Shown piece by piece: positions 1,850-56,207 of a DNA stretch of 64,000 nt. Source of the DNA: an uncultured Ruminococcus sp. (lineage in GTDB: Bacteria > Bacillota > Clostridia > Oscillospirales > Acutalibacteraceae); assembly GCA_902794395.1 (NCBI GenBank), contig CADBHB010000010.1, positions 1 to 64,000 on the forward strand. The letters run 5' to 3'. The notes beneath the pieces were generated by a model that was not told the origin of the DNA, did not search any database, and saw only the letters and a program-made list of their open reading frames with translations. The position numbers were made by a program, and so were the translations under genes. Position 1 is the stretch's first letter; each line of letters begins with the position of its first letter.

Positions 1850-4768
1850 ATGAGAAAATCATCAAAGGCCATGAGCCTGTTGCTTTCAGGTTTAATGGCA
1901 ACTTCGTGCTTTGGCATGGCTCTCTCGTCAGTTTCCGCCGCTTCGGTCGAGTCCGAGTCGGTTGGCGTAGATACTGCCGAACAGAGAATCGCTAAAGGCC
2001 ATCAGCTGGTTTACTTCCAGTTCCCTGCATCTGTATGGGGCAACGCTTCGTCAGTTAAGTGGAACACCAAGAAGCACACCGCAAACGTTTTCTGTAACTA
2101 CTATGCTATCTACGGAAACCAGAACGAAGTTAAGACCAGATCGTGGGAGGCTCCTTCCACTTCGATGTTCAAAGACGTTAAGGCCAGTTCGCTTTATTAC
2201 TTCGACATCACCGAGTCCGGTCAGGGTGAAGTAGAAGAAGGCGCCGAGTACGGCATCCTGTTCTCCACCAAGGCAAATGCGGGCCAGGCAGATCTTCTCC
2301 AGCCCAACACCGACGGTTATCAGACCTGTGACCTGTACTTCAACAGCACACTGATCGGTCACACCTATTCTGTAGATGAGCCTGCAGTGACTCGTGAGAA
2401 CACTGCGAACTCTCAGAAGATCGACTACAAAGCTCATTCCGATAACGGCGTGGCCGGCCCCCTGAGAAAGGTTTCTACCCTTTGCGCTTACATTGACGGT
2501 ATGAACCCCGGCAACGCTCCCGCTTCTCTGGAGATGGCAAACGCTCTTAAGACCTATCTTCCCAACCCTGTTAACGAGCCTTCCTTCGTTTGGGCGAAGA
2601 TTCAGCCTGTGCTGACCAGCTTCAACACCACAGCTCAGGATGTATACGACATGTATGTTGAGAAGTACGCCGGTAAGGTAGCTGAGGGTGTTCCCTACGA
2701 GCCCGTCGGCGACGGTTCCGACCTCAAGTCTGACGGTACCCTGAAGGATGTGTACAGATACACCTCCATCACCACCACCACCATTGAGGATGGCGTTGAG
2801 CAGACCAAGGTTGAAAAGTACCCGACTCTCGACCTCGTAAGAGAGAGACTGAACCTCGGCGAGCTTCCCACCGTTCAGGATGTTACCGCTGTTGAGGCTA
2901 CCATGACCGGTACTGTTGAGGGCGGCAAGGCTCTGCCCACCATCACCGGCAACTCCAACGAGTACACTGTATCGGCTTCCTGGGCTCCCCAGGCTAACAC
3001 CGCCGCTTACAACACCACTTACACCGCGACTGTTACCTTCACTCCCGCTGACGGTTATCAGTTCACCAACGATACCACCGCTGCTCTTAGCGGCGCTGCG
3101 TTTGACAACGTATCTTTTGCCGACGGCAAAATCGTTGCTACCAAGGCGTTCACCACCGGCGCTGAGCCTGTTCACGCTATCACTACTGCGGCTGCTACCA
3201 TGACCGGCACTGTTGCGGCTAACTCCGCACTGCCCACCGTTACCGCTAACACCGTTCAGTATTCTTCTGTTTACAGCTGGACTCCCTCTGCGACTTCCGC
3301 AGCTTATGACACCACTTACACTCTGACCGTTACCTTCACCGCGAAGGACGGCTATGAGTTCAACAATGCTTCCACTGCTACTCTCAACGGCGCTGCGTTT
3401 GACAACGTTGCTCTCCAGGGCGGCAAGCTGGTTGCTACCAAGGCGTTTACCACAGGCTCAAAGCCCGTGACCAACATTGACGAAGTAAACGTTTCCACCG
3501 ACGCTGTCATCGCTCCCGGTCAAACGGTTCCCGCCGGCCAGCAGTTCACCACACCCACCACTGCTCCTTACGCCATCCAGAACGTGACTTGGAGCCCTGC
3601 TGATGCGACCTTCGCGTATGACACCACCTACACCCTGAGCTTCCAGGTTGTAGCTACCAACAATGATTATGCCCTCACCGATGCTACCGCTGTTCAGCTT
3701 GGTTACAGCGCAGATTCCGTTTCTGCCAGCTCTTTTGATACCAGCTTCAACAACGGCGTTGTAACTGCGACCTTCACCTTCGTGATGCCCGCAGAGGATG
3801 TTCCCGCTGACAACTATCTGGCAGCAGGTAATGAGGCTGAGCTCTTCGGCACCGCTTGGGATGCTACCAACCATGCTAATGACATGACCAGAAACGCGGA
3901 CGGCACCTACTCCATCACCTTACAGGCTGATAAGGCTTACTCCGACATTCAGGTCAAGACCGTTAAGAACGAGAGCGTTTGGATCGGCGACGAGACCGGC
4001 AACAACGTTACCTTCGATATCACCGGCCCCGGCAAATTCACCGTAACCTGGACTCCCAACGCCGAGTACAATGATGGCGAGGGTGTCACCTCCGTAACCG
4101 GTTCCATCGTTACTTTCAAGGATGGCATCGACATCGAGGGCATATACGCTGCAGGTAACGGCGAAGGCAACTGGCTCAACGGCGCATCTTGGGATCCCGG
4201 TTATGTTGGCAACGAGATGACCATGGTTGCTGAAAACATCTGGGAAATCGAGTTCACCGATGTTCCCGATGGCTTTGAGCGTCAGGTTAAGTTCTCCATC
4301 AACGGCACATGGACCCACAACTTCGGCGGCGAGTTCGTTGAAAACGGCGAAGTTACTGCTGCTGATTACAATGGCGGCAACATCACCTTTGATACTGACG
4401 ACATCTGCACTGTTAAGCTGCAGCTCGACCTCAGAGAATTTGACATGAAGTCCAAGACCGGCGCTTACTTCACCATCACTATCACCTACGAGGGTGAAGA
4501 CGATGATTATGTAGGCATGATCGGCGATGTAAACGGTGACGGCAACATCACCATCGAAGACGCTACCCTGATCCAGCGCAGAGGCGTTGAGCTCGAGGCG
4601 TTCGACGATGCTCAGGAGAAGCTTGCTGACGTTAACGGCGACGGCAGAGTTTCCATCCTCGACGTTACCTGCATCCAGAAGTATCTGGCTGAGAAGACCG
4701 AGGGTATCGGCGACACCGGCAAAATGCTTACCGCTGACGGCCAGCGTGTTTCCGTAAACCTTGCCTGA
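1850..4768 (+). CDS. Secreted multi-modular protein with Ig-like repeats, two starch-binding-like (X25-like) modules and a C-terminal type I dockerin
   Basis: 972 residues, start behind a strong aaaggagg. Residues 1-31 are a signal peptide ending near VSAAS. An N-terminal region (about 40-340) has no domain I can name. Two related modules follow (about 345-437 and 441-538), both opening with ATMTGTV and sharing the pattern W-x-P-x(7)-AAY-x-TTYT-x-TVTF; a diverged third covers about 541-647. Two modules beginning YLAAGN (about 654) and YAAGNG (about 764) look like the X25/pullulanase-associated fold, with N-x-W-type openings and 'DGTYSITL'. A dockerin fills about 890-955, with paired calcium loops GDVNGDGNITIEDA and ADVNGDGRVSILDV. 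No catalytic domain was recognised. Inference: a carbohydrate-binding component that docks onto a cohesin scaffold outside the cell. It is monocistronic, with its own promoter and terminator. Dockerin call is firm; X25-like call is tentative. Confidence 0.85.
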   Translation: MRKSSKAMSLLLSGLMATSCFGMALSSVSAASVESESVGVDTAEQRIAKGHQLVYFQFPASVWGNASSVKWNTKKHTANVFCNYYAIYGNQNEVKTRSWEAPSTSMFKDVKASSLYYFDITESGQGEVEEGAEYGILFSTKANAGQADLLQPNTDGYQTCDLYFNSTLIGHTYSVDEPAVTRENTANSQKIDYKAHSDNGVAGPLRKVSTLCAYIDGMNPGNAPASLEMANALKTYLPNPVNEPSFVWAKIQPVLTSFNTTAQDVYDMYVEKYAGKVAEGVPYEPVGDGSDLKSDGTLKDVYRYTSITTTTIEDGVEQTKVEKYPTLDLVRERLNLGELPTVQDVTAVEATMTGTVEGGKALPTITGNSNEYTVSASWAPQANTAAYNTTYTATVTFTPADGYQFTNDTTAALSGAAFDNVSFADGKIVATKAFTTGAEPVHAITTAAATMTGTVAANSALPTVTANTVQYSSVYSWTPSATSAAYDTTYTLTVTFTAKDGYEFNNASTATLNGAAFDNVALQGGKLVATKAFTTGSKPVTNIDEVNVSTDAVIAPGQTVPAGQQFTTPTTAPYAIQNVTWSPADATFAYDTTYTLSFQVVATNNDYALTDATAVQLGYSADSVSASSFDTSFNNGVVTATFTFVMPAEDVPADNYLAAGNEAELFGTAWDATNHANDMTRNADGTYSITLQADKAYSDIQVKTVKNESVWIGDETGNNVTFDITGPGKFTVTWTPNAEYNDGEGVTSVTGSIVTFKDGIDIEGIYAAGNGEGNWLNGASWDPGYVGNEMTMVAENIWEIEFTDVPDGFERQVKFSINGTWTHNFGGEFVENGEVTAADYNGGNITFDTDDICTVKLQLDLREFDMKSKTGAYFTITITYEGEDDDYVGMIGDVNGDGNITIEDATLIQRRGVELEAFDDAQEKLADVNGDGRVSILDVTCIQKYLAEKTEGIGDTGKMLTADGQRVSVNLA

Positions 4769-12707: not shown

Positions 12708-12758
12708 AAAGCTCCAAAAGCGGAAGAAAAAAGCGAGATACACTATTCTCAATAAAAC

Positions 12759-12787
12759 AAAAAGCGCGGGATCATCCTGCGCTTTTT
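12759..12787 (+). terminator. Terminator of the DUF3298-like lipoprotein gene
   Basis: A 12-bp stem from 12759-12770 with 12776-12787 (one G-T pair), 5-base loop, closing in TTTTT. It sits just left of the inverted-repeat element. Confidence 0.85.
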
Positions 12788-12795
12788 GCTTGTTT

Positions 12796-12926
12796 ATACT
12801 AATCTCAGATAAAAAGCGGACAAAGATTTGCGAGGATATTTTTCGCAAGACGAGGCGAAGGACGACAACGAAGTATTGCGGAAAATAGACCGCAAAGATT
12901 GTCTATTTTTTATTTGAGTTTAGTAT
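12796..12926. repeat. Short element with terminal inverted repeats, copy 1
   Basis: 131 bp. The left end ATACTAATCTCAGATAAAAA is an 18-of-20 inverted match to the right end, and the complementarity continues inward through gacaa and tttgcg, so the whole element can fold into a long hairpin. It has no coding frame of note. A second copy lies at 55991-56185. It sits between two convergent lipoprotein genes. Resembles a MITE or REP-like element. Confidence 0.85.
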
Positions 12927-12955
12927 TAGATAAATGAGTTTTTCTTATTGTAATA

Positions 12956-55218: not shown

Positions 55219-56007
55219 ATGAAATACTTTATTGACTTTGAGGCTACGCAGTTTTCGGGAGAGATAATATCTATCGGCTGTGTGGATGAAACGGGACGGC
55301 AGTTTTACACCCTGCTAAAGCCCGCCAAAATGAGAAATATCACCGAATTCATCCTTGAGCTGACGCACATCGGCGAGGAGGAGATAGCGGCGGCGCCGAC
55401 AGCCGACGAGGCGTTCTGCGCTTTTTTGGATTGGCTTGATGATACCAAGACCGCGGACTTCTACTGCTACGGCGACAGCGACGCGCTGTTTTTGTCGCGC
55501 ACGCGCCGTCATTTGAAAAGCTTCCGCGCGCAGCTGGGGCTGAGCATGATCTACGGCGGTCTGCACGACTACTCGGTGGATGTAAAAAAACACTTTTTGC
55601 TCAAGACTTCCATCGCGCTGAAAAAGGTCGTCGCCTACTACCGCGGCGCGCCCGTGGATCAGACGCACAATTCGCTGGACGACGCTCTTTTCCTCAAGGA
55701 GGTCTACGACAGATCCCACGGCAAAGAGCCCGAGGAATGTCCCTTCCCGGAATACCAAACGGGCGCGAACCTGCCCAAGATCAAAAAGCTCATCAAGGCG
55801 GTCAAGGGCAACGTGAGGCTGGAATTCACCTCGTACGGCAAGGCTGCCGACTGGGTAATGAGCGAGCAGTTCAGCGTGGGCGACACGGTCAACGACAAAA
55901 CCAAGTCAAAGGTGTGCAGCCGCATCGTCAACGCGGCGGAAAAGGAGCGCCCCTACTGCGGCTTTGAGTGGAGCGTGGAAAACCCGCCTAATACTATTCT
56001 CAGATAA
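55219..56007 (+). CDS. DEDDh-type 3'-5' exonuclease-like protein
   Basis: About 262 residues. The exonuclease fold opens YFIDFEAT (Asp and Glu of motif I), has a motif II region near FYCYGDSDALF, and motif III HNSLDDALFL, where His and Asp complete the DEDDh set. The C-terminal 90 residues (LPKIKKLIKAVKGNVRLEF ...) are an additional small domain I do not recognise. The final codons (about N-T-I-L-R) and the stop TAA lie inside the left terminal repeat of the 55991-56185 element, so the natural C terminus may have been replaced or extended. Likely acts on DNA or RNA ends; substrate unknown. ATG at 55219 preferred over TTG at 55201. Confidence 0.8.
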   Translation: MKYFIDFEATQFSGEIISIGCVDETGRQFYTLLKPAKMRNITEFILELTHIGEEEIAAAPTADEAFCAFLDWLDDTKTADFYCYGDSDALFLSRTRRHLKSFRAQLGLSMIYGGLHDYSVDVKKHFLLKTSIALKKVVAYYRGAPVDQTHNSLDDALFLKEVYDRSHGKEPEECPFPEYQTGANLPKIKKLIKAVKGNVRLEFTSYGKAADWVMSEQFSVGDTVNDKTKSKVCSRIVNAAEKERPYCGFEWSVENPPNTILR

Positions 56008-56185
56008 AAAGTGGACAAAGATTTGCGAGGATAATTTTCTCAAGACGAGGCGAAGGACGCCGCAAGGCTGGCGCCTTGCAAGGACGACAACGAAGTATTG
56101 CGGAAAATAGACCGCAAAGATTGTCTATTTTTTATTTGAGAAAATAGACCGCAAAGATTGTCTATTTTTTATTTGAGTTTAGTAT
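55991..56185. repeat. Short element with terminal inverted repeats, copy 2 (enlarged)
   Basis: 195 bp. Same ends and core as copy 1 (12796-12926), in the same orientation. It differs by a 27-bp insertion containing gcaaggc...gccttgc in the centre and by a tandem duplication of 37 bp at the right end (aaaatagaccgcaaag ... atttgag twice). It sits between the exonuclease gene and a convergent AlkD-like gene, overlapping the last 17 bases of the former. Confidence 0.85.
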
Positions 56186-56207
56186 AAGGAAGCAGAAAAA
56201 TAATTAT

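Follow-up and report, generated by a model that had tools for sequence, protein, structure and literature searches.

The window analyzed here, i.e. the whole stretch of 64,000 nucleotides from an uncultured Ruminococcus sp. assembly, contains two copies of a short structured element, each lying between a plus-strand gene and a convergent minus-strand gene. An earlier note, made from the letters of the window alone, had placed the two copies at these positions and in this setting, and both are indeed present there. The features are as follows, with the borders of the copies (12797-12925 and 55992-56184) given without the target duplication:

12758-12788, plus strand: intrinsic-terminator-like hairpin of the upstream plus-strand gene, 8 bp from the insertion site of copy 1 and outside the element
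12794-12796, no strand assigned: left target duplication of copy 1, TTA
12797-12925, plus strand (the top strand of the fold is the plus strand): element copy 1, 129 bp, a 27-bp deletion form of the 156-bp element
12797-12815, plus strand: left terminal inverted repeat of copy 1, TACTAATCTCAGATAAAAA
12858-12864, plus strand: AAGGACG in copy 1, where 27 bp (the central hairpin) are absent relative to full-length copies in the cmsearch alignment
12907-12925, minus strand: right terminal inverted repeat of copy 1, TACTAAACTCAAATAAAAA as read on the minus strand
12926-12928, no strand assigned: right target duplication of copy 1, TTA
55219-56007, plus strand: ORF ending in copy 2, with its last codons and stop codon within the copy
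55989-55991, no strand assigned: left target duplication of copy 2, TAA
55992-56184, plus strand (top strand plus): element copy 2, 193 bp, scoring 154 bits on the plus and 34 bits on the minus strand
56104-56177, plus strand: tandem pair of a 37-bp right-end segment in copy 2, from the sequence
56185-56187, no strand assigned: right target duplication of copy 2, TAA

The full-length element is 156 bp, runs from TACTAA to TTAGTA, and carries the terminal inverted repeats TACTAAWCTCARATAAAAA at both of its ends; both window copies are altered forms of it. Copy 1, for which our covariance model R1 gives 133.9 bits on the plus and 51.7 bits on the minus strand, lacks 27 bp that fall between AAGGACG direct repeats. 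Its ends match at 18 of the first 20 bases, the flanking A/T being counted, in agreement with the earlier note, as does the inner complementarity from which a long hairpin had been proposed: copy 1 folds at -51.4 kcal/mol (z -9.5), a value equalled by none of 200 shuffles. Neither form holds a gene, the longest complete ORF being 29 amino acids in copy 1 and 42 in a full copy, again as had been noted. A coding reading, considered because the core has a three-base rhythm, was rejected since the frames of relatives are broken by stops (judged by eye). Copy 2 (55989-56187 with its duplications) is inserted into the end of the ORF at 55219-56007, which we take to be exonuclease-like, and now provides its last codons and stop codon.

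The element is not confined to the window, nor are its copies explained by paralogous genes having an end in common. BLAST against the own genome (2,207,472 bases in 51 contigs) gave 40 matches at about 30 loci. Thirty loci are listed; the matches also include a pair of short derivatives, a diverged copy and two lone ends, with some matches at contig ends possibly being two halves of one copy. Among 18 own copies, deletion forms included, the mean identity over aligned bases is 97.1% (range 90.5-100%), implying that the family spread recently. End-like sites with at most three mismatches number 60 in the own genome versus 1 for the reversed control.

Pairing of these ends reveals a target duplication of fixed length. 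In a first pass, which took TACT[AG]/[TC]AGTA ends with at least 14/24 complementary positions in the loci fetched by then, 105 end pairs had distinct flanks, a total that includes chance pairs. The two sides agreed in the flanking 3-mer in 77 of them but in a 4-mer in only 2; the middle base of the flank agreed in 86 of the 105 pairs, and the outer bases were mostly T and A. In a second pass the core was present in 96 of 103 pairs, 80 of the 96 having a common 3-mer, and once sites fetched twice were merged, a 3-bp TNA duplication was found at 76 of 91 core-bearing sites. The duplication was likewise present in 23 of the 28 listed copies of G210, a genome of another family in which the arms of the element are different and in which end pairs were sought up to 340 bp.

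A systematic search with the flanks returned 20 rows, several of which represent one site fetched twice or insertions in common, and among them one clean 3-bp junction. This empty site lies between loci L086, where the element at 3418-3574 has TTA on each side, and L101, where a single TCA is present, with flanks of 91% identity on one side (75 bases) and 94% on the other (33 bases). Near-empty candidates (L020/L151, L067/L157, L078/L014 and L080/L191) have offsets of -16 to +7 bp, those displayed being too diverged to read. The sequence interrupted in L086 (approximately 3326-3417 and 3575-3660; 1-220 in L101) is itself a second small structured repeat, the target of a nested insertion, with ends similar to those of the element and a different core.

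Loci L041 and L052 have one insertion site in common, with a full-length copy in one and an internally deleted copy in the other, indicating that some short copies arose after insertion. Short copies lacking the hairpin or the core exist with intact duplications; thus, the whole core may not be needed. The core-less short forms of 75-83 bp (L169, L170, L052 and L195 1256-1336) look by eye like independent deletions between short direct repeats, e.g. TTGCG.

The element is of the MITE type, i.e. a mobile element that is non-autonomous and gene-less: it is short, has no transposase gene, is bounded by terminal inverted repeats, and comes with a target duplication of fixed length and with an empty site. 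The proposal of a MITE in the earlier note is thus well supported, i.e. by many near-identical copies, inverted ends, the 3-bp TNA duplication and the empty site, whereas its alternative of a REP-like family is not supported, REPs not being known to have a fixed target duplication such as this element shows.

The element differs from a simple deletion MITE in that one defined strand folds into a long rod with conserved internal loops. The fold of a full copy has a predicted energy of -72.4 kcal/mol on the top strand versus -54.2 kcal/mol on the other strand, and the top strand gives the better fold in every one of the 57 unique copies from the genus that measure 140-165 nt. In an alignment of 18 genus copies, which being related are non-independent events with respect to both cells and copies, 97% of cells pair and compensatory double changes are present in 25 of 55 pairs. 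The covariation score was 0.312 versus 0.136 for shuffled alignments, with none of 500 shuffles as high, and at most 0.054 with the partner slid; the weakest covariation measure, further pair types, was reached by 3 of 500 shuffles, the shuffles leaving the relatedness of the copies in place.

Mismatches in the arms are strongly biased with respect to strand. In 74 unique related copies, with both strands scored alike, there are 214 G.U-type versus 19 A.C-type mismatches, G.U being in excess in 68 copies and A.C in 2, with 4 ties; the excess sits mostly at a few inherited positions and so does not represent 214 events. Outside the genus, 55 of 66 hits were long enough for this analysis, and the requirement of 20 or more matched arm positions left 54; these 54 gave 115 G.U-type versus 43 A.C-type mismatches (34 hits with more G.U, 12 with more A.C and 8 ties), to which their selection by a model that scores G.U and loop letters may add bias. 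The unpaired regions are also conserved: for 64 of the 66 non-genus hits, the fit to 30 conserved unpaired columns exceeds that of the same hit with its loop letters shuffled (p<0.05), compared with none of 14 opposite-strand hits; the model by which the hits had been selected scores these columns as well.

The distribution of the element is wider than nucleotide similarity indicates. BLAST (E<=0.001) detects a match in 33 of 59 other genomes of the genus, some of the matches being weak, and in none of 38 genomes of other genera, whereas the covariance model found members in other genera that BLAST missed. At E<=1e-4, R1 matches occur in 39 of 197 genomes of a sample of the order, the own genome included (38 of 196 others), and cover 27 of its 111 genera; at E<=1e-5 they occur in 12 of 299 genomes of a sample of the phylum, two of which are the own genome and one other of the order, with ten lying outside the class. 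R1 E-values are approximate. Because the family's own copies reach as much as 64 bits when read on the opposite strand, a weak hit of less than about 50 bits may reflect a generic hairpin. Among the 80 of 103 matches that were listed, the named carriers are rumen Ruminococcus/Clostridia assemblies and Ruminococcaceae bacterium P7.

Comparison between families reveals that the arms differ while core motifs of the AAGGCGRAGGA and GACRACAACGMAGT types persist. The ends and duplications also change. Of 10 loci recovered in the phylum sample, 7 combine, by eye, TAC/TGC/TAT-type ends with CTAG at one side or, in 3 of the 7, at both, the other 3 being misfits. Also by eye, duplications of 4 bp, TTAA and TTTA, accompany GGCAATACCGC ends in two members, and L208, whose ends are akin to GGCAATACCGC, has no visible duplication. 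Searched with the covariance models of Rfam 15, the window has no match at gathering scores, and none falls on the element in any of 20 divergent loci (E<=0.5). For 10 genus loci (E<=1) the matches were limited to rimP, at chance level (28.7 bits) and partly over the copy in L001, and a T-box in L042. Two distant members adjoin other matches to structured RNAs, i.e. 6S RNA for L196 (1722-1924) and the TPP riboswitch for L212 (1400-1497).

Template switching in quasi-palindromes can give matching changes and so mimic compensatory change, and a plain MITE with a palindrome self-corrected in this manner is the strongest ordinary rival to a fold kept by selection. The element would then be a deletion derivative of an insertion sequence, its fold being a by-product of inverted ends and template-switch repair, with no role of its own. 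The size, ends, duplication and intergenic placement are all typical of bacterial MITEs, core-less short copies exist, and folded transcripts are described as usual for bacterial MITEs in PMC10969869. However, neither the conserved unpaired loops in 64 of the 66 non-genus hits nor strand-biased G.U pairs are expected from symmetric matching of ends, and the core persists while both arms and target duplication change; we therefore regard this explanation as unlikely. Selection on the folded top strand of a MITE-type element better accommodates these observations.

With respect to how the element moves, a 3-bp TNA duplication is characteristic of subgroups of the IS5 family. Of the features of the IS5 family (IS1031/IS427-type), the element has the 3-bp TNA duplication, and an IS5-type DDE transposase was not found in the host, with PF01609, PF13359 and PF13586 giving no match in the own genome. 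PF01609 is present in 18 of 60 genus genomes and PF13586 is over the cut-off in 3 of 15; none of the PF01609/PF13586 transposases fetched has convincing TACT-type end pairs, those at L181, L184 and L186 being weak (13-14/24) and lacking a duplication. By eye, no inward pair among the 60 end-like sites of the own genome and the 97 of G210 frames a transposase gene. Neighbouring ends in these two genomes pair at up to 321 bp, wider pairs joining neighbouring complete copies, and the widest pair of the own genome (on C6, about 4 kb, with an imperfect left end) holds genes that look like housekeeping genes.

An autonomous partner was also not seen among the pairs listed in 12 relatives, and no transposase is framed by the element's ends in G060 or in the fetched loci. 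The latter yielded six pairs of more than 250 bp, mostly chance pairs or two neighbouring copies, with L093 holding a real 322-bp element that has a second element inside it. The interior of a 371-bp end pair in L307 (G038:C23:7300-8100) is a run of N. No autonomous element with matching ends was seen in viral contigs, which gave no hit to the core pattern, and neither plasmids (queried with a genus copy) nor phages (queried with the L277 copy) gave a match. A viral origin was considered and rejected, the three end patterns having given 14, 6 and 0 hits in viral contigs, all 20 of which read as chance with no element around them. Since repeats collapse in draft assemblies, the missing autonomous partner is weak evidence.

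No linked autonomous copy having been seen in the own genome or G210, the element could be of the REP/RAYT kind, its hairpin being moved as single-stranded DNA by a chromosomal HUH (Y1) transposase whose gene lacks the element's ends on its flanks. A strand-specific hairpin with mismatched loops would be well suited to such a system. The precise 3-bp duplication argues against this mechanism, because Y1 systems are not known to make one, and we consider it quite improbable. Mobilization of a MITE-type element by an enzyme of another type appears the better reading.

The placement of the element with respect to genes is non-random in the own genome and its relatives. The convergent setting that the earlier note emphasized applies to both window copies but does not extend to the genome as a whole, where 5 of 17 own copies with both neighbours assigned are so placed; a cruder count that includes partial copies (n=27) gave 7 convergent, 18 codirectional and 2 divergent. 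Convergent placement is nevertheless more frequent than at nearby control TNA sites, both in the own genome (5/17 versus 4/287) and in genus relatives (23/41 versus 18/468), whereas in G210 there is no enrichment (10/23 versus 149/285). Divergent placement was found once in the own genome, three times in relatives and not in G210. All these placement counts, except the cruder one, refer to elements with both neighbours assigned by a simple gene finder, and the control sites leave out 150 bp around the insertion.

Of 19 own insertions, 12 have a hairpin resembling an intrinsic terminator no more than 60 bp away, versus 22 of 287 control sites (p 1.5e-8), as do 33 of 53 insertions in genus relatives versus 48 of 468 (p 7.6e-17); the terminator-side placement in G210 (10/23 versus 78/285) is not significant (p 0.15). 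With the window as control, the own-genome values are 13/20 versus 85/549. Thus, in the own genome and genus relatives copies gather by terminators and convergent genes, which may reflect a preference for such sites or their being the least harmful ones, and the placement at gene ends would be a product of selection or targeting. In pneumococcal repeats, over-representation between convergent genes is taken as a sign of parasitic mobile elements in PMC3049150.

The earlier note had also suggested that the element doubles as a bidirectional terminator. Against this, a simple consensus scan called no terminator inside either window copy, and a normal intrinsic terminator (12758-12788) is present just before copy 1. 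In codirectional settings the top strand is sense in 20 cases and antisense in 19 (6/5 in the own genome, 10/5 in relatives and 4/9 in G210). Sense copies have 0.08 A.C mismatches per copy and antisense copies 0.31, with top-strand energies of -65.0 versus -60.5 kcal/mol (13 copies of each among 61). The nominally slightly weaker fold of antisense copies is in the direction that a role for the host would predict. The presence of the strand bias in both contexts, however, argues against upkeep by a neighbouring host transcript alone.

That the element is a host-useful regulatory RNA or bidirectional terminator, spread and kept for its effect on neighbouring genes, is highly improbable: the very stable hairpins on both strands, the enrichment that the own genome and its relatives show near terminators and between convergent genes, and the nominally slightly better fold of sense copies would suit such a role, but the orientation to genes is balanced, the strand bias holds in sense and antisense contexts alike, the scan called no terminator in the element, and a terminator often already adjoins the insertion. 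In L042 the element (1502-1657) sits within a T-box leader, and the leader match (1302-1706) accordingly covers it; for pneumococcus, PMC3049150 reports a BOX element with a T box on either side.

The explanation that we favour overall, and consider probable, is that of a MITE-type element whose folded top strand has been kept by selection on the element lineage. In many genera, and also outside the class, compensatory changes and G.U pairs specific to one strand maintain the fold, despite differences in the arms and in some of the duplications. Insertion would proceed by a 3-bp staggered cut at TNA, and thus by a transposase acting in trans on the TAC...GTA ends; we infer that this enzyme is of the DDE type. 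On the best reading, the family is therefore a MITE superfamily moved in trans by a putative transposase. The folded top strand, either as RNA or as single-stranded DNA, may be needed for copying or moving the element, giving the fold a likely role in its spread. Were this so, selection would act on the element lineage rather than on adjoining host genes.

The same rod and loops may have been carried between elements with different ends and duplications, i.e. TNA, CTAG and, in two cases, 4-bp TTNA. We tentatively raise the possibility, doubtful as it is at present, that what is conserved at the centre of a mobile superfamily of the Clostridia and their neighbours is a portable structured RNA or folded DNA strand, which recruits or licenses a shared system of mobilization in trans. 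Movement would in that case depend on the fold and not on the terminal sequence alone.

Comparison with known systems reveals partial similarities. According to PMC3049150, RUP, BOX and SPRITE of Streptococcus pneumoniae are likewise short non-coding repeats with folded transcripts that are over-represented between convergent genes; mobilization in trans is proposed there for BOX and RUP, and no matching insertion-sequence ends are given for SPRITE. The same source describes these three repeats chiefly from S. pneumoniae, with fewer in S. mitis and rare occurrences in other streptococci, whereas the fold of the present element is found in many genera. Going by the descriptions, the strand-biased compensatory fold and the TNA duplication set the element apart from them. 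For ERIC and Correia, effects on transcript cleavage are reported in PMC3049150.

The element resembles IS5-subgroup MITEs in its TNA duplication and differs in the TAC with which its ends start and in that none of the three IS5-type domains is matched in the own genome. ERIC, Correia, and other enterobacterial and neisserial MITEs are, like the element, short imperfect palindromes with internal deletion forms. Their duplication is TA rather than TNA, which by their descriptions distinguishes them from the element. IStrons, which reportedly combine a group I intron ribozyme with an insertion sequence, are similar in joining mobile DNA to a structured RNA (one that is predicted for the element), but the element is only 156 bp and has no gene. 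QMITE of Coxiella burnetii is also a MITE with a stable transcript hairpin, from which small RNAs derive, but has 7-9 bp duplications and belongs to another lineage, as described in PMC10969869.

As a mobile element it is a MITE, i.e. of a known kind; a fold that is conserved within the order and also outside it, with changing ends and duplications, was found in no description within open-licence PubMed Central. We located no account of the element in open-licence PubMed Central full text, a search that covered main texts as distinct from the supplementary motif lists of PMC2864571, PMC8040213, PMC10969869 and PMC3049150, and the element thus apparently represents a wide, undescribed family of conserved-fold mobile hairpins. 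The usual view of bacterial MITEs is that they are debris left by insertion sequences and specific to a lineage. That the fold is recognizable across genera and classes despite changing ends and target duplications suggests that a non-coding mobile element can have a long independent history in which its structure is the conserved part, and makes it testable whether the folded strand is required for transposition in trans. The covariance model allows the family to be annotated. Several contigs of the own genome end inside a copy, so such repeats may explain some contig breaks in rumen assemblies.

Composite and enlarged forms of the element also occur. In L093 (5528-5849) an element of the genus type encloses another hairpin element with GGCAATACCGCA-type ends and, by eye, a 4-bp TTTA duplication. 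The longer copies of G210, either 318-321 bp (L254, L255, L262, L265, L266, L269 and L272) or 259-280 bp (L268, L270 and L263), are enlarged by a GC-rich, hairpin-like insert that separates the core from the right arm, with a TNA duplication in 9 of 12. In L207 (1474-1749) and L210 (1376-1653), from another family, two related hairpins lie side by side as a two-rod composite bounded by inverted repeats with AGTGGAGAGCCGA-type ends.
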